Shown here one piece after another: positions 313 through 10,831 of a DNA stretch of 11,222 bases (position 1 is the stretch's first letter; every line of letters starts with the position of its first letter). Made by a program: the position numbers and the translations under genes. Origin of the DNA: an uncultured Lachnospiraceae bacterium (GTDB taxonomy: Bacteria; Bacillota; Clostridia; Lachnospirales; Lachnospiraceae); the NCBI GenBank assembly GCA_902803635.1, contig CADCQU010000189.1:1-11222 (forward strand). The letters are read 5' to 3'. Under the pieces are notes generated by a model. It saw nothing but the letters and a program-made list of their open reading frames with translations, did no database searches and was not told where the DNA came from.

Positions 313-1167
313 ATGATTGGTGCGATTATTGGTGATATTGCTGGTTCGAGGTTTGAATGGCATAATTACAAGTCAAAAAAGATTTCGCTGTTCAACAAAA
401 AGTGCCGGCCGACGGATGACAGCGTGATGTCCCTGGCGGTTGCGAAGGCAATCCTTGCCTGTGAAGGGAATTACGAGGAGCTTTCTGCAAATGCAATTGC
501 GTGCATGCAGGAGCTTGGGCGGATTTATAAGGATGCCGGTTACGGAGGGTCATTTTACAAATGGCTCTTTACGGAGAATCCGCAGCCGTACAATAGTTAT
601 GGAAATGGCGCCGGAATGCGGGTCGGGCCTTGTGGCTTTGCGGCGAAGACGCTGGAGGAGGCGAAGGAGCTGGCGGCGAAGGTGACGAGGGTAAGCCACG
701 ACCATCCGGAAGGAATGAAGGGGGCGGAGGCGATTGCTGTTGCTGTTTTTCTTGCAAAAAGCGGGAAAAGCAAAGAGGAGATAAGAACCTTCATCGAGGA
801 AAACTATTACAAGATCGAGTTCACGCTCGATGGGATTCGAAAGAAGTATACATTTGACGTTTCCTGCCAGGGTTCCGTACCGGTTGCTCTGGAGGCGTTT
901 TTTGAGGCAAATGACTTCGAGGACGCCATCCGCAACGCGATTTCGGTTGGCGGGGACAGCGATACAATCGCGGCCATGGCCGGGGCTGTTGCCGAGGCGT
1001 TCTATGGAATTCCGGAAAATGTAATAAGGTCGGCCATCCCTTACCTTGATCGCCAGGAGATGGAAATATTGTGCACTTTTGAAAAGAAATTCCCGTCTAA
1101 AGCGGTGGCGGAGGATGGTGGGGCGGTGAAAACCGTTTTTGACGTTCTTAATGTATTTGAGAAATAA
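313..1167 (+). CDS. ADP-ribosylglycohydrolase (DraG/ARH) family protein
   Basis: 284 residues, complete. DraG/ARH-fold enzymes remove ADP-ribose from proteins or small molecules using two metal ions, usually magnesium or manganese. The family signatures are present in order: the N-terminal GAIIGDIAGSRFE block (residues 3-15), metal-binding TDDS (34-37), YGNGAGMRV (96-104), HDHPEG (129-134), and C-terminal GGDSDTIAAMAGAVAEA (213-229), whose D215, D217 and T218 match the second metal site. The length is normal for a single-domain member, and no signal peptide or membrane segment is seen, so it should be cytoplasmic. The ATG is preceded by a G-rich GGGGGAG ribosome site. No nitrogenase gene or ADP-ribosyltransferase is visible nearby, so a dinitrogenase-reductase role is unlikely and the substrate cannot be assigned. 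It is followed after 20 bases by the lipoprotein gene and probably shares its transcript. Family assignment is secure; substrate is not. Confidence 0.93.
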   Translation: MIGAIIGDIAGSRFEWHNYKSKKISLFNKKCRPTDDSVMSLAVAKAILACEGNYEELSANAIACMQELGRIYKDAGYGGSFYKWLFTENPQPYNSYGNGAGMRVGPCGFAAKTLEEAKELAAKVTRVSHDHPEGMKGAEAIAVAVFLAKSGKSKEEIRTFIEENYYKIEFTLDGIRKKYTFDVSCQGSVPVALEAFFEANDFEDAIRNAISVGGDSDTIAAMAGAVAEAFYGIPENVIRSAIPYLDRQEMEILCTFEKKFPSKAVAEDGGAVKTVFDVLNVFEK

Positions 1168-1187
1168 GGGAATCGAGGAGTAGACAA

Positions 1188-2177
1188 ATGAAAAAAGGTA
1201 GGATTGTTTGGGCGGTGGCACTTGTTTTGTGTATGCTTTTTACTGGCTGTTCGTCTGTCACACCGCAGTCGGGAGCTTCGAGTGCAAGTAAAGTAGAGGG
1301 GGATTCACTGGGCGAAACGGAGTATGCCTGTGACGTGATTCCCTTGAGCCGAAACAATGTGGAACTGCATTTGGATCGGATGATAGTTAAGGGCACCGAG
1401 CCGGAAAAGAATATCCTGCTCATACATGGCGTTACCTACTCCTCGCATGAATTTGACGTGGATTATAAAGATTACAGTCTTGTACGGCGGCTTGCGCGGG
1501 AGGGGTATGCCGTTTGGCGGCTCGATATCGCGGGCTTCGGACAGTCGGAAGAGGTTACGGATGGGTTTCTACCCGATTCCGATTACGCTGCGGAGGACAT
1601 CAATGCCGCCGTGGAAAAAATCGTGGAGCAAAGCGGGAAGGAGAAAATCGACCTTCTTGGATGGAGCTGGGGCACGGTGACGACCTCGCGCTTTGCTGCG
1701 AAATATCCGGAGCATGTCAATCGGCTGGTGCTGTATGCGCCAATCCTGAGCGGGATAGGAGAATATGAAGTCAGCGAGGCGTTCCACCACAATACCTGGG
1801 AGCACGCCGCGGACGATTTTCAGCACGGGGAGGACGGCGGCTTTGACCTTTCGATTACAGAACCGGAGATGATCGAGATGTTCTGCTCAAGCTGCTGGCA
1901 TTACGACAGGGAACACAGCCCCAACAGCGGGAGAAGAGACATTTGCATCGATCCTTCCAAGAAGCTGATTGACTTGGCGGCGATTACGATGCCTACGCTG
2001 GTCATCTGCGGAGGCAGCGACCCGTACCTTAACTATGAACTTGTCAATTCTTCCCTGAGCGAGCTTCCCGAAGGATCTTCCCTGAAGGTTATCGACGGCG
2101 GAGCGCACGTGGTTATGTATGAAAAGCCGTATTCTCAGGAGTTTCAGGAAGCATTGACTGAGTTTTTAAGTAAGTAA
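1188..2177 (+). CDS. Alpha/beta-hydrolase fold lipoprotein
   Basis: 329 residues. The N-terminus is a lipoprotein signal: charged KK-R, a hydrophobic stretch (about 7-18) and lipobox F-T-G-C with Cys21 as the expected lipidated residue, so the mature protein should be anchored outside the membrane. A short Ser/Ala-rich linker (about 22-40) precedes an alpha/beta-hydrolase domain. Visible catalytic features are the oxyanion-hole HG (80-81), the nucleophile elbow G-W-S-W-G (Ser160), a candidate acid Asp278 in GGSDPY, and His307 in GGAHVV. The family covers esterases, lipases, peptidases and other hydrolases, and the sequence does not tell which. A cap region rich in His, Trp and Cys (about 195-250) probably shapes substrate choice. 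GAGGAG at 1175-1180 lies seven bases before the ATG. The gene sits 20 bases after the glycohydrolase gene and 26 bases before the helicase gene, consistent with an operon, although no functional link to DNA repair is evident. Confidence 0.9.
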   Translation: MKKGRIVWAVALVLCMLFTGCSSVTPQSGASSASKVEGDSLGETEYACDVIPLSRNNVELHLDRMIVKGTEPEKNILLIHGVTYSSHEFDVDYKDYSLVRRLAREGYAVWRLDIAGFGQSEEVTDGFLPDSDYAAEDINAAVEKIVEQSGKEKIDLLGWSWGTVTTSRFAAKYPEHVNRLVLYAPILSGIGEYEVSEAFHHNTWEHAADDFQHGEDGGFDLSITEPEMIEMFCSSCWHYDREHSPNSGRRDICIDPSKKLIDLAAITMPTLVICGGSDPYLNYELVNSSLSELPEGSSLKVIDGGAHVVMYEKPYSQEFQEALTEFLSK

Positions 2178-2203
2178 GTATATGTCGGGAAGGAGGGGAC
2201 CAG

Positions 2204-5200
2204 GTGGCGAACCAGGAGAAAAAGAAGATACGCATTTCGGTTCGCACTCTGGTGGAGTTCCTGCTTCGGAGTGGTGATCTGGACCGGAGGACCGGCGGTG
2301 TGGCGGATAAGGAGGCGATGCTGGCAGGGGGCCGCATGCACCGGAAAATTCAGAAGGAGAGCGGTGGCGATTACCGAGCGGAGGTGCCCCTGGCCGAGGA
2401 AGCGGAGCTGGGATCATTTGTCATGCGTGTTGAGGGACGTGCGGATGGAATTTATACCAAGGATTTGAAGGAATTTTCAAAGCAGGCTTTCCGCACAGCC
2501 GCCGAGGGAATTGAGGACAACACGCTTTTTTTGGTACGTGAAAACGAAATAAAAGAAGAACTCTCAACGAAAAAATCATCCGGAGACAAGTGTACTCCGA
2601 AAGGTTCGATGGGAATGGAATCGACCGCATCTCAGCAGGGAAAGGACAAGGAATCGACCGCATCTCAGCAGGGAACAAACAAGGAATCGACCGATTCAGA
2701 GCAAGGAGCGGAGAAAAATGCGGACGTATCCTTGCAGGAAAGTGAAGAAACGGAGGAAACACTGTCTTTGTTGCAGCGTATGGGCGTGGACGGGGCGAGG
2801 CGATCCGAGAAGAACTTGTCCGTGGTGGATGAGATTAAGGGAATGTATCTGGAGCCCTCCCTGCTCGACGGACCGGTTCCGGTGCATTTGGCGCAGGCAA
2901 AGTGCTACGCGGCGATGCTGGCAAATGCCGAAAATTTGCCGGAGGTGGGCATTTGCATGACCTATGTGCAGCTGGAAAATGAGCACCTTAGGAGGTTTTT
3001 CTTCCTGTATACAAATGAGGAGCTTCGCGGCTGGTTCGACGCGCTCCTCGCGGAGTGGGAGAAGTGGGCTACTTGGAAGGCGGACTGGGAGCGGACGCGG
3101 GATGCCTCGATGGAGACGCTGACCTTCCCATTTCCGTACCGCGAGGGGCAGCGGGGCCTTGTGGCGGCGGTCTACCGCACCATCGAGCGCGGGGGCGAGC
3201 TCTTCCTCATGGCCCCGACAGGCACGGGAAAGACGCTCGCGACGGTTTACCCGGCGGTTCGCTCGCTCCGGGAAGGCTGCGCAGAGCGCATTTTTTATCT
3301 CACGGCCAAGAACCAGACTCTTGCGGTTGCCTGGGAGGCCTTCTCCATTCTCCGGGAGCACGGCCTCAGGCTGAAGGTCGTGCGCATCACCGCCCGCGAC
3401 AAGGCCTGCTTCCTGTCTACGCCCACCTGTGACCCCGACCATTGTCCGTATGCGAAGGGACATTTCGATCGGATCAACGAGGTCGTGTTTTCCATGCTGA
3501 ACGGTAAACGAATTTCCGGCTGCGCAATTGGGAAGCAGAACGAAATAATGCTTCCTTTGGAGGAGCAAAGTGACGAAGAATTCCGTCAGCAGTTGGCGAA
3601 AACCAATGGGATGCTTCACCCAGAAAAGACTTCTGCGGGGACGACAGTGCCTTGCAACAAGACAAGCCCTGACAAGAAACAGGAGCACCGCAATATTATT
3701 CCGTATAATAAGGACAAAAACGGATATACGGACAAATGCGAGGCGGATTTTTTCGATTTATCTCACATCCGCGAGGTGGCGGAGGCGGCGAAGGTCTGCC
3801 CCTTCGAGCTGGCGTTGGAGCTTTCGTCGTGGTGCGATGCGATTCTCTGCGATTATAACTACGCATTTGACCCACATGCGTATCTTCGGCGTTTCTTCGG
3901 GGAAAATGCGGACGGCGGGAGCGTGCTCCTCGTGGACGAGGCTCATAACTTGGTCGAACGAGGGCGGTCGATGTATTCCGCCATGCTTTCCAAGGCAAAT
4001 GTTCTCGCCGCGAAGAAGGTTCTGAAAACGGCCCGTCCGAAGGCGGCGAGGGCGTTGGAGAAGCTGAACAAGTCCCTGCTCGCTCTACAGAAAACGCTGC
4101 CGGAGGAGAATGCTGAGAATGTACGGAACAATCAAAAATGCCGGATTCTCTCGCCGGCTTGGCTGTCCGGGGAGGGGGAAGCCGACGGAAAATTCGAGCA
4201 TGGCACGGTATTTGATACAGAGGAGACCATAGGTAGGAAGGAAGCTGCGCTCAAGACTGTATCTCTAAGGACGTTTTCTTTTTTAACAGGTGGTGCCGAA
4301 AAAAGAGTTTTGTCTGAAGAGAAAGGGAAGATGGTCGATGCAGTCCCATCAGGCCGGGAACAGCTTCAAACAGTGTATACAAATGCCCTCCGCGCAGTCG
4401 CCGAGTTGGATGCTTTCTTTAAGGAGGAGCGGGGTTCGCATTTGCGGGAGGAAGTGCTCGATTTTTACTTCGAACTGCGGACATTTGTCGATACTTTCGA
4501 GGCCATGCAGGAGGATTATATCGCTTACGGGGCCATGGACGAGGACAAGCATTTCTTCTTTGAGCTTTTCTGCGCGGATCCTTCAAGGCGACTCACGGAA
4601 ATGGCCGAGCGGGCGGGAGCTGCCATTTTCTTTTCGGCGACGCTTCTCCCCATCGACTATTATCGGAGGCTCCTCACGACCCACGAAAATGTCCCCGCCA
4701 TCTACGCGAAGTCTGCATTTGACGAGAAAAACAGACTTGTACTCATCGGACGGGGCGTGACCACGCGGTACAAGGACCGCGGGATCGCCATGTACCGCAA
4801 AATCGCCGGCTATATTCGCGCACTTGCACGTGGGAAGGTCGGGAACTACCTTGCTTTTTTCCCTTCTTATCAGTTGCTTTATGAGGTGCTCAAAGTTTAC
4901 CGGGAGGAATTTGACGAGCAGGGGATTAATTTCGTCGCACAGGGGCGGGGCATGGACGAGCTGGGCCGCGAAATCTTTATGGAGAATTTCTACGAGGACC
5001 CCAGGGAGAGCCTTGTTGGATTCTGCGTGATGGGCGGGATGTTCGCCGAAGGCATCGACCTTACGGGAACGCGCCTCATCGGGGCGGTCATCGTCGGTAC
5101 CGGCCTCCCGCAGGTCGGCTTCCAGACGGAGCTTTTGCGGAGATATTTTGCGGAGCTTTCCCTCGATGGTTTCCAGACCGCCTACCAGATCCCCGGCATG

Positions 5201-5389
5201 AGCAAGGTCCTGCAGGCGGGCGGTCGCGTCATCCGCACCGCCACCGACCGGGGCGTCATTTTGCTCCTCGACGACCGCTTCATAGAGGCCTCCACACGGC
5301 AAATGTTCCCCCGCGAGTGGGCGGGGGCACGCATTTGCCGCGAGGAGGAGCTGCCGAGGGTGCTGGCGGAGTTTTGGGAGGGAGGATGA
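2204..5389 (+). CDS. PD-(D/E)XK nuclease / XPD-DinG-type Fe-S DNA helicase fusion, with large insertions
   Basis: 1061 residues. The start is GTG at 2204, set by AGGAGGGG at 2191-2198 and by the N-terminal block IRISVRTLVEFLLRSGDLD, which I recall from clostridial homologues. The N-terminal nuclease domain resembles Cas4/AddB nucleases: H46, D81 in GRADG, E210-I-K212, and Q231-x3-Y235. The helicase core is superfamily 2: Walker A APTGTGKT (337-344), DEAH (578-581), SAT (811-813) and motif VI QAGGRVIR (1004-1011). Cys402, Cys409, Cys414 and Cys532 are candidate ligands of the Fe-S cluster typical of XPD/DinG enzymes. The likely role is ATP-driven 5'-3' unwinding coupled to cutting of damaged or branched DNA in the cytoplasm. 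Homologues as I recall them are roughly 780-800 residues; the excess lies in three hydrophilic insertions (about 95-200, 436-520, 636-715) that leave all motifs intact. The gene converges on sbcC 20 bases away. Family is secure; biological role is inferred. Confidence 0.93.
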   Translation: MANQEKKKIRISVRTLVEFLLRSGDLDRRTGGVADKEAMLAGGRMHRKIQKESGGDYRAEVPLAEEAELGSFVMRVEGRADGIYTKDLKEFSKQAFRTAAEGIEDNTLFLVRENEIKEELSTKKSSGDKCTPKGSMGMESTASQQGKDKESTASQQGTNKESTDSEQGAEKNADVSLQESEETEETLSLLQRMGVDGARRSEKNLSVVDEIKGMYLEPSLLDGPVPVHLAQAKCYAAMLANAENLPEVGICMTYVQLENEHLRRFFFLYTNEELRGWFDALLAEWEKWATWKADWERTRDASMETLTFPFPYREGQRGLVAAVYRTIERGGELFLMAPTGTGKTLATVYPAVRSLREGCAERIFYLTAKNQTLAVAWEAFSILREHGLRLKVVRITARDKACFLSTPTCDPDHCPYAKGHFDRINEVVFSMLNGKRISGCAIGKQNEIMLPLEEQSDEEFRQQLAKTNGMLHPEKTSAGTTVPCNKTSPDKKQEHRNIIPYNKDKNGYTDKCEADFFDLSHIREVAEAAKVCPFELALELSSWCDAILCDYNYAFDPHAYLRRFFGENADGGSVLLVDEAHNLVERGRSMYSAMLSKANVLAAKKVLKTARPKAARALEKLNKSLLALQKTLPEENAENVRNNQKCRILSPAWLSGEGEADGKFEHGTVFDTEETIGRKEAALKTVSLRTFSFLTGGAEKRVLSEEKGKMVDAVPSGREQLQTVYTNALRAVAELDAFFKEERGSHLREEVLDFYFELRTFVDTFEAMQEDYIAYGAMDEDKHFFFELFCADPSRRLTEMAERAGAAIFFSATLLPIDYYRRLLTTHENVPAIYAKSAFDEKNRLVLIGRGVTTRYKDRGIAMYRKIAGYIRALARGKVGNYLAFFPSYQLLYEVLKVYREEFDEQGINFVAQGRGMDELGREIFMENFYEDPRESLVGFCVMGGMFAEGIDLTGTRLIGAVIVGTGLPQVGFQTELLRRYFAELSLDGFQTAYQIPGMSKVLQAGGRVIRTATDRGVILLLDDRFIEASTRQMFPREWAGARICREEELPRVLAEFWEGG
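2618..2716 (+). repeat. Three tandem 33-bp repeats inside the helicase gene
   Basis: Three head-to-tail 33-bp units encode ESTASQQGKDK, ESTASQQGTNK and ESTDSEQGAEK (residues 139-171). Units 1 and 2 differ at only three of 33 bases; unit 3 is more diverged. In the same 11-residue phase the flanks are weaker copies: KEELSTKKSSG, DKCTPKGSMGM before, NADVSLQESEE after, keeping Ser or Pro at position 5. The array lies between nuclease residue D81 and the E-I-K motif at 210-212, a distance I expect to be short in relatives. The frame is preserved because the unit is a multiple of three. It is predicted to be a disordered, polar linker. Confidence 0.9.
3557..3721 (+). repeat. Degenerate 33-bp-period insertion in the helicase Fe-S region
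   Basis: Between Cys414 and Cys532 of the helicase, residues 452-506 can be read as five loose 11-residue units: LEEQSDEEFRQ, QLAKTNGMLHP, EKTSAGTTVPC, NKTSPDKKQEH and RNIIPYNKDKN. KTS recurs exactly 11 residues apart, and position 5 is S, T, A, P, P. The surrounding insertion (about 436-520) is polar and unlike the flanking conserved segments (CPYAKGHFDRIN before, VCPFELALELS after), which in relatives I recall being separated by only some 20-30 residues. The repeat character is much weaker than at 2618-2716 and may be partly chance. Confidence 0.4.
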
Positions 5390-5416
5390 TTTTGAGAAAA
5401 ATAGGGAAATCATCCT
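5383..5416. terminator. Palindrome between convergent helicase and sbcC genes, overlapping both stop codons
   Basis: A perfect 10-bp inverted repeat, AGGATGATTT (5383-5392) and AAATCATCCT (5407-5416), encloses a 14-base A/G-rich loop. The left arm contains the helicase TGA (5387-5389) and the right arm contains the sbcC stop (TGA on the minus strand, 5412-5410). Its place between two convergent genes suggests a shared bidirectional transcription end. No long T-run follows on either strand, so it is not a textbook intrinsic terminator. It may act as an RNA 3'-end stabiliser instead. Confidence 0.55.
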
Positions 5417-8400
5417 ACGAGGATTTCTACTTTGCTGCCGCCGCTTTTTTCCTTGGTGACGACGATTTGCTTGTCGATTCGTTCCTTGAGCTCGGCGACG
5501 TGGGAAATGATGCCGACGAGGCGGTTGCTCTCGGTGAGGTCCTGCAGGGCTCGGATGGCCTGACGGAGGGATTCCTCATCGAGGGAGCCGAAGCCCTCGT
5601 CGACGAACATGGTGTCGAGACGGATGCCCCCCGCCGAGGACTGGATTTCGTCCGAAAGACCGAGGGCAAGGCAGAGCGAGGCCTTGAAGGACTCCCCGCC
5701 GGAGAGGGTTTTCACGTTGCGCAGAGTACCATTGTAGTGGTCGAGGACGTCGAGTTCGAGGCCGTACTGGTGCTGTTTATCTGTGGCCTCTTTCCGGCGG
5801 CGGAGCTCGTACTGGCTGTCGGTCATGGCCAGAAGCCGCCGGTTCGCGCGGGCGATGATGCGATCAAAGTAGGTCGTCTGGACATAGGTCTCAAGCATGA
5901 TCCTTTCTCTGCCTTTCAGAGCTCCGTTCGCGGTGTCGGAGAGGGTACTGACCCACTGGGATTTGCGCTCCAGATTGGCAAGCTCGGTCGCTCCTTTCGA
6001 GATGTTTTCCAACAGCTTCTGGTTGTTGCTTAAGCGGATGGAGAGTTGCGTGCTTGCTTTCTTCTCCTCTCCATCGCGCGTCTCCCATGCAGTTTTTTCA
6101 GCGAGAAGTGAAGCTTTTTCCGGTACTTTTTTCCCTTCCGTCTGCTCACGGAGCGCATCCTCTTTTTTAGCAATTTGTTCACGGAGCTGTTCTGCTTTGG
6201 CTTTCATTTCTCCTAGTTCTTTTTGTCCCTTGTTTAATACCTCTTCAGCAGTTTTTATTGCAGCTTCCAGACGTGTCTTTTTCTCCTCATCCTTCGATTG
6301 TTGCTCGATAGCCTCCTTTTCGCTGGCAAATGTCAGATCCCGGGAGAGGGTGTCAATTTCGACCTGACGAGCGTTTTGTTCTTTGGAAAGATTCTCCTTC
6401 TGCGTGGTTTTTTCTTGCAGATCATTTTCCAGCGTCGCAAGCTTTTCCACATCCTCTGGAATCTGTTTGTCTAAGAAATCCCGACGGGCGAGGCGGTCGT
6501 TCTCAAGCTTGATCTTTTCTTCGATTTCGTCAATCAGAAGTCTAGCTTCGTCCTGGCTCTTCTTGGTAGCTTCAAGAAGAGAGGGAAGAGCACTATCAAT
6601 TCGAACTTTACGATAGAGAATCGTGCTGGCAAGGTCTTCCCCACTCGTTGGAATAGAGTTGTCATTATCCAACAAACGGGAAGATGTAGTAGCTCCGAGT
6701 TCTTTCGGAGACGAAAGAAGAGTATCTTCCGTCAATTCAGAACTCGAAGAAAGGACAGCCTCTTTGTATAAAGGATTCGAAGGGCGAGCATTTTCCGTGT
6801 ATTCAAAATGCGAAGAGAAAGAATTCTCAGCATTGACAGGGAATGAGGAAGCAATGTTGTCTGGAACCACGGAGAAAGCCGGAATCTCAGCATCGCAGAG
6901 GGAGGGAAGCATCGCGTCGCAGAAGGAGAGCTGCTCCAACATCTGGGCGAGCTGTCCGTCAAGGCGGCTGACGGCGTCACTGCAGGTGTTATAGCTCTTT
7001 TCTGCCGTTTCCACCGCGTTTAGGATGGCGGTTCGCTGTCTTTCCATTTCCGCCTTCGCCTTCTCGGCGACGGAGCGGTTCTGGTAGTTTAGCTTTTGCG
7101 CCAGAGCCGTTATCTGGCTTTCCAGCTCGCCTTTTTTCGTGGTGTGGGATGCAATGGCTGTGCGGATGTTTTCCAGGTTTTTCTGGATCGTGACAAATGC
7201 GCTCTCCAGAGCGGGCTGGCTTTTTTCCAGGACTTCCTTGTGGTCGATACGGGCATTCTCTGTTTTTAGTTGCTCTTCAAGAGAGACCTTGGAAGAACGA
7301 ATTTCCTTTTGTAACGCAGCGAGCCGAGTATTTGCCTCCTCGAAGGGGCAGGCATTCAGAAGCTCGGAGAGGAGTCCATCGATTTCCTTACGCTTGGCTG
7401 TCAAAGTTGCGTTAAGCTCTCCAGCCGTCTTACTGGCGGCCTCCATTGCCGCGGTATCGTCCTTCGCTTTTTTCTCGACAGCCTCCAGTTCCGCCTCGGT
7501 GGGAGCTTCGGGCGACAAATGCGCGGGCAGGGGATGGGAGAGAGAACCGCAGACAGGGCAGGGCTGCCCTTCCTGCAGGGTTTGCGCCAAAAGGCCCGCC
7601 TGCTCATCCAAAAAGGCCCGGTGCAATGTCTGGTAGGTTTGCTGACTGGCATCGGCAGTTTCTTTCGCTTTCAGGTATTGCGACTGCGCAGTTTCAAAAT
7701 TGCCCTGTAGTTCTGCGTGACTCTCTAAAGCCTTCTTTAGCTTTTCCAGCCGGGGTTCTTTGTCCTGAAGTTGAGTAAGTTGTCCATTAAGCTTCTCGCG
7801 CATTTCCCCCGCATTTGCAAGTGCCTGTAACTCTTCCTTACAGTCGTTTCTGGCTTTCTCGTGCTTCGCAAGGTTTTGGGCTTCTGTGGTTTCCGCATCT
7901 AAAGCCGTTGTAAGGGCTGTTTTGGTTGTTTGAAGGCTCTCCTGAAGTGTTTTAAGTCTGTCATACTCCGGTAGTTCGGCTTCGATTTGGCTTATCTTTG
8001 TCTGGAGCTTGTCCGCCTCGGGCTGCTTTTTCCGTGCCTCTTCCAGCTTCGCAGCCTTAACTTCCAAATCAAAATCTTGCATTTTCTTTTTTTTGGAGAG
8101 GGTGGAATAATCGGTAAGCTGCCCATGTTGCTTTTTGGCCTCCCCAAGCTTGTTTTCAGCTTCTTTTTTCTGTCCTTCAAGCTGCGCCTTCGCCTCCCCG
8201 GCATTTTCGAGGGAGGTGCGCTCGGTTCGCAGAGCTTCGAGGGCTTCCTTGGCGGTTGTCAGGGCGGCCTCTGCCGCAATCCGATTCGTTTCAGCAGCAG
8301 AGAGTGTTGCGACTCCTTTTTCCTGTTCCTTTCGAAGCGCATCGCGTTTCTTGTAATTCGGAAGCTGTGCCTCGCGAGTGGTGATGGTTTTTCCGAGCAG

Positions 8401-9357
8401 GTCAATTTCGGGCTGTTTTTCTTGCGCACTTTCCCATGCGGCCTTCTGTTTAGCTACCTTTTCTTTTTGCGTGTCCAAAGATTGGTTTTGCCTTTCAAGG
8501 TCATTTTTCCAGCCTTCAATCGTTCCCACGTCCTGCAGCTTCCCGCGGATACTTTCTAACTGATTTCGTGTTTCCCCTATGCGGCCCGAGAGGGCAAGCT
8601 GCGCGTCCTCGTCCTCGCGGATCAGTCTTTCGAGCAGCTCCAGCGACTGGTCCGCAGGGAGCTGGCCGGCGCGAGCCTTCACCACCTCCGGGAAGGCTGC
8701 ATTTGTCTCTTCGCATTGGATGCCATTTAGGTACTGCTGGATGCTCGCCTTTTTGCCCTTGCATTCGGCGGCGAGGGCATTTGCCTCGGCCTTGAGTTTG
8801 TCCTGAAAAACCTGGTAATAGTGGGTTTCGAAAATTTGCCGGAAGATTTTTTGACGATCATTGGTATCGGCGAGGAGGAGCTTTAGGAAGTCTCCCTGTG
8901 CAATCATCGCAATCTGGGAAAATTGCCCACGGTCGATGCCGAGAATATCAAGAATCTTCTGCTTGATTTCGGCATTTTTCGTGAGAACCTTGCCGTCCGG
9001 AAGAGTAAGCTCCACACTTGCCTCCTGCTCCGTGAAGCCTTTGCCGCGCTTTACGGGACGCATATACTTCGGATTACGGCGAATGGTGTATGTTTTTCCA
9101 CGGTAGAGGAAGGTCAGGCAGACCTCCGTGGGGGTCTCCGGCGCGGCGTATTTCGAGCGGAACATGTCCGGCTCGCGGTTTTCGCCGCTCGCCTCGCCGT
9201 AGAGGGCGTAGGTGATCGCGTCAAAGAGGGTGGTCTTGCCCGCGCCGGTATCCCCCGTGATGAGGTACAGGCCGGATTTGCCTAATTTGTCAAAGTCCAC
9301 GACCGTCCGGCCGGCATACGGGCCGAAGGCGGACATTTCAAGCTGTAAGGGTCTCAT
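5410..9357 (-). CDS. sbcC: SbcC, Rad50-like ATPase subunit of the SbcCD nuclease, with internal insertion
   Basis: 1315 residues. SbcC is the Rad50-type SMC ATPase that with SbcD forms the nuclease opening DNA hairpins and removing blocked ends. Visible parts: N-terminal lobe with Walker A GDTGAGKTT (35-43) and Q-loop AQGDF (153-157); a long coiled coil (about 185-590); the zinc hook CPVC (600-603) that joins two molecules; a returning coiled coil (about 615-1130); and the C-terminal lobe with signature LSGGESF (1218-1224), Walker B ending in D1253-E1254, D-loop GSLDE (1257-1261) and a switch histidine H1286. Better-known SbcC proteins are about 1050-1130 residues. The excess is largely a Ser/Pro-rich, non-coiled-coil stretch at about 813-923 in the returning arm, so the two arms are unequal in length. 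The start is supported by GGGAGGA just upstream on the minus strand and by the conserved MRPLQLEMSAFGPY beginning. It lies 166 bases downstream of sbcD on the same strand. Confidence 0.97.
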   Translation of the reverse strand: MRPLQLEMSAFGPYAGRTVVDFDKLGKSGLYLITGDTGAGKTTLFDAITYALYGEASGENREPDMFRSKYAAPETPTEVCLTFLYRGKTYTIRRNPKYMRPVKRGKGFTEQEASVELTLPDGKVLTKNAEIKQKILDILGIDRGQFSQIAMIAQGDFLKLLLADTNDRQKIFRQIFETHYYQVFQDKLKAEANALAAECKGKKASIQQYLNGIQCEETNAAFPEVVKARAGQLPADQSLELLERLIREDEDAQLALSGRIGETRNQLESIRGKLQDVGTIEGWKNDLERQNQSLDTQKEKVAKQKAAWESAQEKQPEIDLLGKTITTREAQLPNYKKRDALRKEQEKGVATLSAAETNRIAAEAALTTAKEALEALRTERTSLENAGEAKAQLEGQKKEAENKLGEAKKQHGQLTDYSTLSKKKKMQDFDLEVKAAKLEEARKKQPEADKLQTKISQIEAELPEYDRLKTLQESLQTTKTALTTALDAETTEAQNLAKHEKARNDCKEELQALANAGEMREKLNGQLTQLQDKEPRLEKLKKALESHAELQGNFETAQSQYLKAKETADASQQTYQTLHRAFLDEQAGLLAQTLQEGQPCPVCGSLSHPLPAHLSPEAPTEAELEAVEKKAKDDTAAMEAASKTAGELNATLTAKRKEIDGLLSELLNACPFEEANTRLAALQKEIRSSKVSLEEQLKTENARIDHKEVLEKSQPALESAFVTIQKNLENIRTAIASHTTKKGELESQITALAQKLNYQNRSVAEKAKAEMERQRTAILNAVETAEKSYNTCSDAVSRLDGQLAQMLEQLSFCDAMLPSLCDAEIPAFSVVPDNIASSFPVNAENSFSSHFEYTENARPSNPLYKEAVLSSSSELTEDTLLSSPKELGATTSSRLLDNDNSIPTSGEDLASTILYRKVRIDSALPSLLEATKKSQDEARLLIDEIEEKIKLENDRLARRDFLDKQIPEDVEKLATLENDLQEKTTQKENLSKEQNARQVEIDTLSRDLTFASEKEAIEQQSKDEEKKTRLEAAIKTAEEVLNKGQKELGEMKAKAEQLREQIAKKEDALREQTEGKKVPEKASLLAEKTAWETRDGEEKKASTQLSIRLSNNQKLLENISKGATELANLERKSQWVSTLSDTANGALKGRERIMLETYVQTTYFDRIIARANRRLLAMTDSQYELRRRKEATDKQHQYGLELDVLDHYNGTLRNVKTLSGGESFKASLCLALGLSDEIQSSAGGIRLDTMFVDEGFGSLDEESLRQAIRALQDLTESNRLVGIISHVAELKERIDKQIVVTKEKSGGSKVEILVG
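6631..6894 (-). repeat. Degenerate 33-bp repeats inserted in the SbcC returning coiled-coil arm
   Basis: Residues 822-909 of SbcC divide into eight 11-residue units: DAEIPAFSVVP, DNIASSFPVNA, ENSFSSHFEYT, ENARPSNPLYK, EAVLSSSSELT, EDTLLSSPKEL, GATTSSRLLDN and DNSIPTSGEDL. Position 1 is acidic in seven of eight, position 2 is N, D or A in all eight, and position 6 is Ser or Thr in seven. The 33-base period is also visible in the DNA. By hand count 6701-6865 is about 42% G+C, lower than the flanking sbcC sequence. Proline and serine content rules out a continuous coiled coil here, so the segment is probably a disordered loop leaving the arm. Confidence 0.75.
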
Positions 9358-9523
9358 TGTTTTCCTCCCAGTTATCTATCATTCGTTCCAGGGCTTCTTT
9401 CCTGCTCGATCAAAGGTTCTAAGGTCGCCTTCGAATCGTTCCTGCGAAACCATTGTTTTTTCATGTGTAAGGAGTTCAAGGGTGGCTTGGATCATCTTCC
9501 AAGGAGCTTTTAGGTCGAAGGCA
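9358..9523 (-). other. 166-base spacer between sbcD and sbcC with an open minus-strand frame
   Basis: SbcD ends at 9524 and the sbcC ATG is at 9357. The spacer holds the sbcC ribosome site next to 9357 and otherwise no recognised feature. On the minus strand a frame different from that of sbcD stays open through the sbcD end down to 9379, encoding text such as FDAFDLKAPWKMIQATLELL. Its only candidate start is a TTG at 9567 inside sbcD with a weak GGAG before it. I do not recognise the product. It could be a small overlapping gene, a remnant of a longer sbcD tail lost by frameshift, or chance. No clear terminator or promoter was seen, so sbcC is probably co-transcribed with sbcD. Confidence 0.3.
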
Positions 9524-10660
9524 TCAAACCTTGCCTTCCCAGATGCTTTCCATAATCTCTCTTGCAAATTTCTCCTGCTCGGTATTCATGGGCCGCCCGT
9601 TTTGCTGTTCGTAGAATTCCGAGAACAAGTCAAATGGCGATTTTGTCTCCACGGCTTCGAGCTCGGCGATGGTTCCGGCGGCCCTGGTGCGGCTGTTGTT
9701 ATAGTCGAGCTTCATGAGATTCGGATAAATGAGACGGAGCTTCCCAATTGCGTCGGGAATATCGTCCTCGTCGGTCAGGGTGATGTGCACGTAATCCTCG
9801 GTGTTGGTGCCCTCGTAGTTGGGACGGAAGGAGACATCGTCGTAGCTCCCCGTGATCTCGCGGAGGTCGTGGAGGGGCTTGAGCGGGACGGTGCGGACTA
9901 CGAGGCTCTCTTTTTCCGCAAGTGTCACCACAGTAACGGATTTTTCGTGCCTGGCCTCGGAGAAGGAGTATTTTAAAGGCGTGCCGGAGTAACGGATGCG
10001 CACCCCGCCGATGTTCTGCGGGCCGTGGATGTGCCCGAGGGCCACGTAATCGAAGCAGTCAAAGACGGAGGCGTCCACGTTGTCGCTGCCGCCGACGGAA
10101 ATTTCCTCGGAATCGGAGCGGGCCGCGCCGGTGACAAACTGGTGGGTGACGAGGACGTTTCTCTCGGAGGGATTGATGCAAATGGCATCGACGGCGACCT
10201 TAAGTGCGTCGGTGTAGCTTTCGATTTTCGTGTCCGGGAAGAAACGGCGGACGTGGGCGGGCTTTACGAAGGGGAGCAGGTAGAAGTTGACCGGCCCGTG
10301 TTCGTCTGAAAGGACGACCTTCTCGACCTTGCCGTCGTAGACGGGCGAGACGTGGATGCCGGTGCGCGCGATGAGCCGGGCGGCGAAGGAGAGCCGTTCA
10401 GGGGAGTCGTGATTGCCGCTGATGAGAAGGACCGGGAGCTTCCTTGCGGCGAGCTTTACGAGGAAGTCGTCCAGAAGCTCCACCGCCTCGGTCGGGGGTA
10501 CGCCCTTGTCGTAAATGTCCCCGGCCAGTACGACCGCGTCCGGGGCCTCGGTGTCGATGATTTCCAGAATTTGCTTAAGGATATATCTCTGGTCTTCCAG
10601 CATGCTGAACTCGTTGACCCGCTTTCCAAGGTGCAGGTCGGAGAGATGGATGAACTTCAT
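9524..10660 (-). CDS. sbcD: SbcD, Mre11-like nuclease subunit of the SbcCD complex
   Basis: 378 residues counted from the ATG at 10660. SbcD is the manganese-dependent calcineurin-like phosphoesterase that performs the cutting in SbcCD, with exonuclease and hairpin endonuclease activity controlled by SbcC ATP binding. Metal-site motifs are all present: D8 and H10 in LSDLHLG, D48 in AGDIYD, N73-H74-D75 in SGNHDS, H173 in VTHQF, and H210/H212 in LGHIHG. A C-terminal capping region (about 245-345) and the SbcC-contact tail follow. Length is close to the usual 380-400. An upstream in-frame ATG would add 15 residues (to 10705), but AGGAGG just before 10660 and the conserved MKFIHLSDLHLGKR beginning decide for the shorter form. 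It is read leftward, first in an sbcD-sbcC pair, behind the promoter at about 10723-10733, and is divergent from ridA. Confidence 0.97.
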   Translation of the reverse strand: MKFIHLSDLHLGKRVNEFSMLEDQRYILKQILEIIDTEAPDAVVLAGDIYDKGVPPTEAVELLDDFLVKLAARKLPVLLISGNHDSPERLSFAARLIARTGIHVSPVYDGKVEKVVLSDEHGPVNFYLLPFVKPAHVRRFFPDTKIESYTDALKVAVDAICINPSERNVLVTHQFVTGAARSDSEEISVGGSDNVDASVFDCFDYVALGHIHGPQNIGGVRIRYSGTPLKYSFSEARHEKSVTVVTLAEKESLVVRTVPLKPLHDLREITGSYDDVSFRPNYEGTNTEDYVHITLTDEDDIPDAIGKLRLIYPNLMKLDYNNSRTRAAGTIAELEAVETKSPFDLFSEFYEQQNGRPMNTEQEKFAREIMESIWEGKV

Positions 10661-10722
10661 GAAGGCCTCCTTTTTCGGTATGGGGCGGGGCAGTTCCTCG
10701 CCCACGCTACGTGTTTCTTCCT

Positions 10723-10733
10723 ATTATACCACG
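10723..10733 (-). promoter_or_regulatory. Probable sbcD promoter (extended -10 box)
   Basis: On the minus strand 10728-10723 reads a perfect TATAAT, preceded by TGG at 10731-10729, giving an extended -10 element (TG-N-TATAAT). No good -35 hexamer lies 16-18 bases upstream; the stretch there is pyrimidine-rich, as extended -10 promoters can tolerate. Transcription would start near 10716, leaving a leader of about 55 bases before the sbcD ATG at 10660. Confidence 0.65.
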
Positions 10734-10831
10734 GCTGGAGTGGTAGGGAAGGAGAAATCTGGCAAATGCAGCCGCAAATGCCTTCACTGTCACAAAGGTA
10801 GTTTCCAAGACTGTGAATGAAGGGGAAATGA

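Follow-up and report, generated by a model that had tools for sequence, protein, structure and literature searches.

Iterated short words in other bacteria

To our knowledge, and in our searches, self-specific uptake words are known only from the Neisseriaceae and the Pasteurellaceae. The USS of the Pasteurellaceae, whose copy number is similar to that of the word described here, likewise has a 9-base core word with many copies inside genes and mismatched forms of intermediate excess, whereas our word has no distal A/T-rich extension and its flank information lies mostly within four bases. Chi and KOPS are also over-represented short words, but they are polar along the chromosome, and no polarity is seen here.

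The DUS of the Neisseriaceae, as presented in PMC3630211, are likewise short asymmetric words of about 1,000 or more copies, with a common core, lineage-specific flanks and dialects distributed along the phylogeny; the 1,035 exact 9-mers found here in 2.4 Mb are of the order of the 943 to 5,918 10-mers per genome given there. Genes for the type IV pilus, ComEA and ComEC are also present in our genome. The differences are that our lineage is probably of Clostridia type, that no PilB was found in some of the dialect-bearing relatives, and that neither an extra non-coding enrichment nor an excess of inverted pairs is seen. DUS are reported to be highly conserved within Neisseria, whose genomes are much closer to one another, whereas the site positions are poorly shared between species here. 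Finally, HIP1 and the alternative HIPs of cyanobacteria, as described in PMC4390886, likewise reach about one site per kb and have clade-specific alternatives, but they are palindromic and tied to methyltransferases, whereas our word is asymmetric.

The word in the window

The window, i.e., the whole stretch of 11,222 nucleotides that was analysed, contains 18 exact copies of CAAATGC/GCATTTG, against a mean of 2.19 and a maximum of 5 in dinucleotide shuffles (18 or more in 0 of 200). All 18 sites had been claimed by an earlier, sequence-only reading, which gave 17 of the positions correctly, 1377 being a misprint for 1367. Its yardstick of equal base use was too lenient, but the heptamer excess holds under stricter models. 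The core CAAATG, put at about 31 copies, counts 32, and site mapping bears out the claim that several codon phases and both strands are used. The pair announced as intergenic (10763 and 10775) indeed sits in the stretch that separates sbcD from a Ribonuc_L-PSP (RidA-type) gene. The longer word GGCAAATGC, of which CAAATGC is a fragment, had been overlooked. The sites are as follows:

488..494, plus strand: CAAATGC, within an ADP-ribosylglycohydrolase-type gene
1367..1373, minus strand: CAAATGC (the misprinted 1377), within an alpha/beta-hydrolase-type gene
2884..2890, minus strand: CAAATGC, within a Rad3/DinG-type helicase gene
2920..2928, plus strand: complete GGCAAATGC, helicase gene
2949..2955, minus strand: CAAATGC as TGCAAATGC, helicase gene
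3733..3739, plus strand: CAAATGC as GACAAATGC, helicase gene
3863..3869, minus strand: CAAATGC, helicase gene
4380..4386, plus strand: CAAATGC, helicase gene
4438..4444, minus strand: CAAATGC as CGCAAATGC, helicase gene
4715..4721, minus strand: CAAATGC, helicase gene
5331..5339, minus strand: complete GGCAAATGC, close to the end of the helicase gene
7194..7200, plus strand: CAAATGC as GACAAATGC, within sbcC (gene on the minus strand)
7516..7522, plus strand: CAAATGC as GACAAATGC, within sbcC
7811..7817, minus strand: CAAATGC as TGCAAATGC, within sbcC
8699..8705, minus strand: CAAATGC as GACAAATGC, within sbcC
8777..8785, minus strand: complete GGCAAATGC, within sbcC
10761..10769, plus strand: complete GGCAAATGC, non-coding, between sbcD and the RidA-type gene
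10775..10781, plus strand: CAAATGC as CGCAAATGC, non-coding, between sbcD and the RidA-type gene

Genome-wide excess and shape of the word

GGCAAATGC is a genome-wide, asymmetric and strand-symmetric iterated word of this genome. The whole genome was counted against the word read backwards, while the Markov expectations come from samples of 178-425 kb. The 2.42 Mb draft holds 2,407 copies of CAAATGC (1184+1223 on the two strands) against 131+114 for the reversed word, in line with the genome-wide signal that had been proposed, and 1,035 copies of GGCAAATGC (503+532) against 24 (9+15). A third-order Markov expectation, the yardstick suggested by the sequence-only reading, does not match the sampled counts: in a 301 kb sample there are 344 heptamers for 73.6 expected and 162 copies of GGCAAATGC for 7.9 expected, and across samples the excess of the longer word is 18-21 times the expectation. 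This genome is the extreme outlier for the word among 397 sampled genomes of the family. Stretches of G294 contained none of the letters A, C, G and T and were left out.

The inner AAAT is strict, single changes there reaching at most 12 occurrences against 6.3 expected, and the flanks are loose. Many single-mismatch forms of GGCAAATGC are in intermediate excess: those with T at place 1, A at 2, A at 3 or any base at 9 are clearly enriched, and A or T at place 8 is enriched about threefold. The word lacks palindromic symmetry, and substitutions at its centre are not enriched. A symmetric binding site of the form GGCA-NN-TGCC was rejected, since no centre besides AA is clearly enriched.

Related spellings in the genus

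Relatives likewise carry iterated words built on the core GCAAATG, spelled in at least two ways that track the ComEC tree. GGCAAATGC is the spelling of this genome and of G329, TTGCAAATG that of G310 and G333, and both occur in G317, G328 and G309. This distribution follows a tree of one gene, ComEC, covering 27 of the 42 genus genomes, in which the clade has a support of 96/89 and from which the TTGCAAATG-rich G307 is absent. The density of GGCAAATGC varies more than tenfold among species of this one genus, and G306, outside the clade, carries 60 copies per Mb, more than G310 or G333.

G312 shows no excess of GCAAATG (8 for 7.8 expected in 97 kb). Its top 7-mer in two separate samples is AAATGAA, with 32 against 9.4 and 22 against 7.0 on the two strands of coding DNA, yet no more than 14 against 7.4 in non-coding DNA; it is a lead, perhaps to a third dialect, on AAATG. 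A TGAAAATG dialect of pilus-bearing relatives, suggested by samples, was dropped because whole-genome counts of TGAAAATGM do not split pilus-bearing from other genomes.

When sites of this genome are compared with G329, 19 of 23 align without gaps (in 8 of these 19 one or two bases differ, in the other 11 at least three), so that these sites arose by substitution. Few positions are shared: the sites are intact in 0 of 23 cases in G329, 2 of 18 in G317, 0 of 9 in G328 and 0 of 10 in G312.

A possible uptake sequence and its machinery

The sequence-only reading had likened the heptamer to uptake sequences and to HIP1. The first likeness is supported by the asymmetry and strand symmetry of the word, its strict core and loose flanks, and its clade dialects; against the second, the word is no palindrome and its centre changes are unenriched. 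Our leading mechanism, which we put forward tentatively and which may well prove wrong, is that the word marks a DUS-like system of self-recognition. A surface DNA-binding component, such as a minor pilin of a type IV pilus, would prefer word-bearing DNA, which would then pass to ComEA and ComEC. Chance point mutations making or improving a site would spread by biased uptake and recombination, within the places where the protein tolerates the change, and a shift of receptor preference would leave a daughter lineage with a dialect of its own.

Several observations count for this DUS-like reading. The first are the excess in the whole genome and in the samples, the lack of polarity, and the equal coding and non-coding excess. 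The strict AAAT with its intermediate mismatch forms recalls uptake sequences, in which a strict core and mismatched forms of intermediate excess are described (PMC1939737). Further support comes from the substitution origin of the sites. The protein surroundings of the sites are slightly more disorder-prone and of lower complexity (p=0.002 and 0.004; 347 sites), which also counts in its favor, DUS being described as located in permissive places (PMC2397512). So do the dialects tracking the ComEC tree, together with the machinery of this genome, which encodes ComEA, ComEC, PilB, PilT, PilC, PilD and PilM.

Against it counts a machinery that does not seem to follow the word from genome to genome. 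ComEC is found in 38 of the 42 genus genomes. Searches gave no full-length PilB match in four dialect-bearing genomes, G310 (82% complete), G333 and G328 (both 97%) and G309 (76%), and G312 has PilB, PilT and PilM yet no GCAAATG excess. Shorter T2SSE matches are present in the same four genomes; from their matched range, we read them as probably of TadA/CpaF type. The PilM search found none in G328 and G309 and weak matches in G310 and G333 (20 bits; 30.5 and 30.8 with neighbours, for a cut-off of 27 bits), which we read as probably other actin-like proteins. Weak matches of this kind occur in many genus genomes. PilB also occurs outside the clade, in G311, G321, G336 and G303. The few shared positions, the lack of extra non-coding enrichment and of an inverted-pair excess, the undiminished density in genes of atypical codon use, and the abundance of GGCAAATGC in G306 count against the DUS-like reading as well.

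More speculative, and on balance doubtful, is the wider proposal that a Clostridia-type clade, probably within the Lachnospiraceae, evolved its own uptake-sequence system. This would be the first that we know of in Firmicutes; its dialects would number at least two on GCAAATG (GGCAAATGC and TTGCAAATG), perhaps with a third on AAATG, and its receptor, pilus or other, would be unrelated to the neisserial ComP. In our literature searches no such word turned up for Firmicutes or Lachnospiraceae, and a search for the literal string GGCAAATGC returned, among the matches listed and by their titles and abstract openings, unrelated work. If the proposal is true, this third independent case would mean that the uptake-word strategy evolves repeatedly; it would also lead one to expect natural competence where none is known so far, and provide a sequence mark for tracing gene exchange between species.

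Possible roles of methylation or chromosome architecture

A rather unlikely alternative is a HIP1-like ratchet, in which a methyltransferase would act on the core, methylation-dependent mismatch repair or protection would bias which mutations are kept, and changes of target recognition would produce the dialects, with no selection for the word itself. HIP words are palindromic and read on both strands, whereas this word is asymmetric with an unenriched centre, and methyltransferase targets are usually shorter than its nine positions. A process at the level of mutation fits a fold excess that is alike inside and outside coding DNA, continuing creation fits the independent positions in G329, and no pilus is required, which suits G310, G333 and G328. 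The density of GGCAAATG, 407 in 425 kb, is moreover near the one site per kb at which the HIP ratchet model saturates (PMC4390886, section 3.4). Under such a methylation or repair ratchet, HIP1 would have an asymmetric counterpart in this word.

It is unlikely that the word is an architectural or repair site, bound by a nucleoid-associated or repair/recombination protein and kept by selection at about one site per kb. A dense, strand-symmetric word with no replication polarity seen would suit this role, and its asymmetric strict core with looser flanks resembles a protein-binding site. However, a more than tenfold change of GGCAAATGC density within a genus is faster than expected of essential chromosome-organising sites, and the sites are spaced no more evenly than by chance (CV 1.04, as in simulated random placement).

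Polarity, spacing and composition

A polar signal of recombination or segregation of the Chi or KOPS type is very improbable: the length and density of the word are within the Chi range, but orientation is unbiased, at 58:53 for the presumed leading strand (assigned on draft contigs by gene direction and skew) and 87:83 by GC skew; the strand bias that the sequence-only reading had suggested looking for is not seen on this basis. Even spacing was also rejected, gaps of 20-100 bp being in excess (53 against about 32). Most of these close gaps separate sites on one strand and keep the codon phase (among 80 same-strand pairs within 120 bp, 60 have a distance divisible by three), partly owing to an Ala-rich repeat. 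Inverted pairs within 100 bp show no excess (24 for about 28 expected).

Neither base composition nor that of codons or codon boundaries accounts for the word. It is hardly credible that codon choice or codon-pair bias, or else repeated amino acids, gave rise to it, even though one phase dominates (GCA AAT G in 117 of 260 coding GGCAAATG), the word is repeated in an Ala-rich linker and close same-strand pairs are in excess. As the sequence-only reading had held, codon choice is insufficient: the excess outlasts four kinds of synonymous-codon shuffle, both strands and all six reading phases are in excess, and GGCAAATGC is as enriched in non-coding DNA (20 for 1.2, 16.9-fold) as in coding DNA (187 for 10.3, 18.1-fold). 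On codon-pair bias, which that reading had named as a possible explanation, the strictest shuffle, which fixes the amino acid of every codon and the two bases after it and so controls codon pairs in part, leaves 145 observed against 30.9; the equal non-coding excess argues likewise against such a bias. Codon and codon-pair bias are thus rejected for the bulk of the sites, and the shuffles, the six phases, the equal coding and non-coding excess and the lack of polarity together set aside codon use and Chi as the explanation and make KOPS improbable.

An absence of the word from foreign genes, as judged by atypical codon use, is not seen: GGCAAATG density is 1.02, 1.10, 0.98 and 1.05 per kb over the four quartiles of 288 genes. 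The genome has one integrase match (locus L190, 2.9 kb, with 0 GGCAAATG), so the mobile-DNA contrast is too small to judge. Whatever the mechanism, the word penetrates deep into the proteome, since GCAAATG encodes 208 of the 461 Ala-Asn pairs found in the genes that were sampled.

An Asymmetric Word Spread Over the Genome

The window is a complete contig (C189) of a draft assembly (2.416 Mb, 411 contigs, 88.65% complete). Its genes include those for an ADP-ribosylglycohydrolase, an alpha/beta hydrolase, a Rad3/DinG-type helicase, SbcC and SbcD, as well as the first part of a Ribonuc_L-PSP (RidA-type) gene. Most named relatives of SbcD (31 loci, top identity 67%) are MAGs carrying a Clostridia, Oscillospiraceae or Lachnospiraceae label; some carry the labels Spirochaetales, Treponema or Bacteroidales. 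We take the source to be a Clostridia-type bacterium, probably one of the Lachnospiraceae.

The window holds 18 exact CAAATGC sites, as the sequence-only reading had counted, and 200 dinucleotide shuffles reached a maximum of 5; one listed position, 1377, should read 1367. The over-representation is genome-wide, with 1184 forward and 1223 reverse copies vs 131 and 114 for the same word read backwards. The heptamer lies within a 9-mer, GGCAAATGC, which ranks first among 9-mers in a 301-kb sample (41 contigs of the source genome, the window among them), with 162 copies vs 7.9 expected under a third-order Markov model. GGCAAATGC is asymmetric, and the whole genome carries 503 + 532 copies of it vs 9 + 15 read backwards.

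The single-mismatch spectrum shows that the edges of GGCAAATGC are looser than its AAAT core. Substitutions in this inner AAAT, which is strict, number at most 12 vs 6.3 expected; the first G is replaced by T 35 times (5.3 expected), the second G by A 41 times (6.3), the first C by A 34 times (9.7) and the last G by A or T 13 and 14 times (4.3 and 4.6), and any base is tolerated at the final place (28, 59 and 50 vs 7.6, 7.3 and 5.2). Flank information is largely confined to 4 bases around the word. It is practically certain that the word is a real signal of the genome and specific to its lineage.

Placement and Codon Use

Chi and KOPS are over-represented short words that are polar along the chromosome. 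On these draft contigs GGCAAATGC showed no polarity, either on the presumed leading strand (58:53) or by GC skew (87:83 relative to the G-rich strand). Its shorter form, GGCAAATG, favoured the presumed leading strand by 120:85 and the coding strand by 154:106, biases that we attribute to the favoured codon phase. The sites are not evenly spaced, their gap CV (1.04) being that of random placement (1.04); gaps of 20-100 bp are in excess, the close pairs are chiefly same-strand and in codon phase, and inverted close pairs showed no excess. Site density is level across codon-typicality quartiles of genes. The protein context of 347 sites is slightly more disorder-prone (p=0.002) and of slightly lower complexity (p=0.004), both small effects. 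In one gene the word returns every 45 bp:

L049:4391-6076, minus strand: membrane-type protein whose repeated linker is rich in Ala

In line with the sequence-only reading, codon choice alone does not explain the word. The 145 coding copies of GGCAAATGC in 194 called genes exceed the means of four synonymous shuffles (60 shuffles each), whether genome-wide (7.8), within genes (10.3), preserving codon-boundary dinucleotides (19.1) or preserving the next two bases (30.9). The excess is present in all six reading phases, of which GCA AAT G is preferred, and GCAAATG accounts for 208 of the 461 Ala-Asn pairs that the sampled genes encode. Over 425 kb (56 contigs of this genome), the fold excess is equal in coding DNA (349 kb; 187 vs 10.3 expected, 18.1-fold) and non-coding DNA (76 kb; 20 vs 1.2, 16.9-fold), genes being simple ORF calls, so that "non-coding" may include missed genes. 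A methylation or repair ratchet resembling the HIP1 proposal would account for this equality and would need no pilus; however, HIPs are palindromes (PMC4390886), unlike GGCAAATGC, and we consider such a driver unlikely.

Turnover and Dialects

Across 28.6 kb aligned with the relative G329 (73% identity), none of the source genome's 23 GGCAAATG sites is intact in G329; 19 are gap-free, 8 with one or two base differences and 11 with three or more. Identity is lower at the sites (118/186) than in their flanks (996/1380), which is partly expected since the sites were chosen by our genome's own sequence. Intact sites numbered 2/18 in G317, 0/9 in G328 and 0/10 in G312; the G309 alignment covered zero sites. 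From these alignments, the sites seem to have been mostly gained in the lineage of the source genome through substitution. An architectural binding site that maintains the word is possible, if rather improbable, and would have to change unusually fast.

Among 397 genomes sampled from the family, which has at least 334 genera, the source genome carries 1,035 copies of GGCAAATGC and the runner-up among those listed, G399, 259. Within the genus (42 genomes), G329 (407), G317 (390) and G306 (163) follow. An alternative spelling on the core GCAAATG, TTGCAAATG, is found in G310 (402), G317 (361), G333 (351), G307 (256), G328 (229), the source genome (198) and G309 (160), and at most 84 times in each of the other 35. 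In the source genome and G329, GGCAAATGC stands 14-16-fold and TTGCAAATG 4-5-fold over Markov expectation; in G310 and G333 the values are 3-4-fold and 13-14-fold, respectively. All are rough values from sample-based expectations scaled to genome size, several of these expectations being near one.

The dialects follow the tree of the ComEC domain, a single gene tree and not a species tree, which holds 27 of the 42 genomes (38 have a ComEC match; G307 is outside the tree). A supported ten-genome group (96/89) contains all tree genomes with more than 100 GGCAAATGC or more than 50 TTGCAAATG per Mb; outside it the maxima are 60/Mb for the GG spelling (G306) and 31/Mb for the TT spelling (G316).

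Spellings within the ten-genome ComEC group
GG spelling (GGCAAATGC): source genome (G000), G329
TT spelling (TTGCAAATG): G310, G333
Both spellings: G317, G328, G309
Neither spelling: G312, G320, G304

In pilus-bearing G312 (L154-L157, L194, L218-L220), AAATGAA leads the 7-mers in two separate samples, on both strands; as a lead only, it is possibly a third spelling on AAATG.

Uptake Machinery

To our knowledge, only two families, Neisseriaceae and Pasteurellaceae, have uptake words, and literature searches showed no others. Our leading, tentative reading is that the word may be the mark of an uptake or self-recognition system, although we hold this at somewhat below even chances. Such a model would account for the asymmetry, strand symmetry, core-and-flank pattern, permissive placement and dialects of the word. 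Uptake sequences are reported to have mismatched forms in intermediate excess (PMC1939737), and the DNA uptake sequences (DUS) of Neisseriaceae to lie in permissive places (PMC2397512) and to have dialects (PMC3630211).

The source genome holds the parts that the model needs. Contig C204 carries ComEA (SLBB plus helix-hairpin-helix) and ComEC, and a type IV pilus locus on contig C50 encodes PilB (T2SSE plus MshEN), T2SSF (PilC), a prepilin peptidase (PilD) and PilM. A second T2SSE protein on C50 is taken as PilT, and the prepilin-like ORFs and those in the PilN/PilO position, below the Pfam cut-off, are putative, judged by eye and place. In G329 the PilB and PilM matches share one contig, with neighbours similar by eye; in G317 the matches are to a PilT-type protein and PilM, along with a pilin bearing the N-terminal methylation motif.

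The chief weakness of the uptake model is that the pilus is patchy. Dialect-bearing G310, G333, G328 and G309 yielded no full-length PilB; their T2SSE matches are all shorter, of the TadA/CpaF type by our reading, and their PilM matches weak or absent. G312 has a pilus and lacks the word. Loss of the pilus, with words slowly fading, might account for G310, G333, G328 and G309.

Other Repeats

A second interspersed repeat is found outside the window in contigs of the source genome (among L040-L079, L170-L173 and L179-L189), its over-represented words including TGTCATTCT, CATTCTGAG and AAGAATCCC; TCATTCTGAG has 60 copies in 425 kb, 55 of them beyond called genes. A similar repeat in G317 (L080-L119) is spelled differently, with ATCCTGAGC, CTGAGCGTA and AGCGAAGGA among the dominant over-represented 9-mers, so this repeat, too, varies between species. 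The relative G311 (L150-L153) shows an excess of a palindrome, TGAATTCA, with 24 copies in 80 kb vs 3.3 expected.
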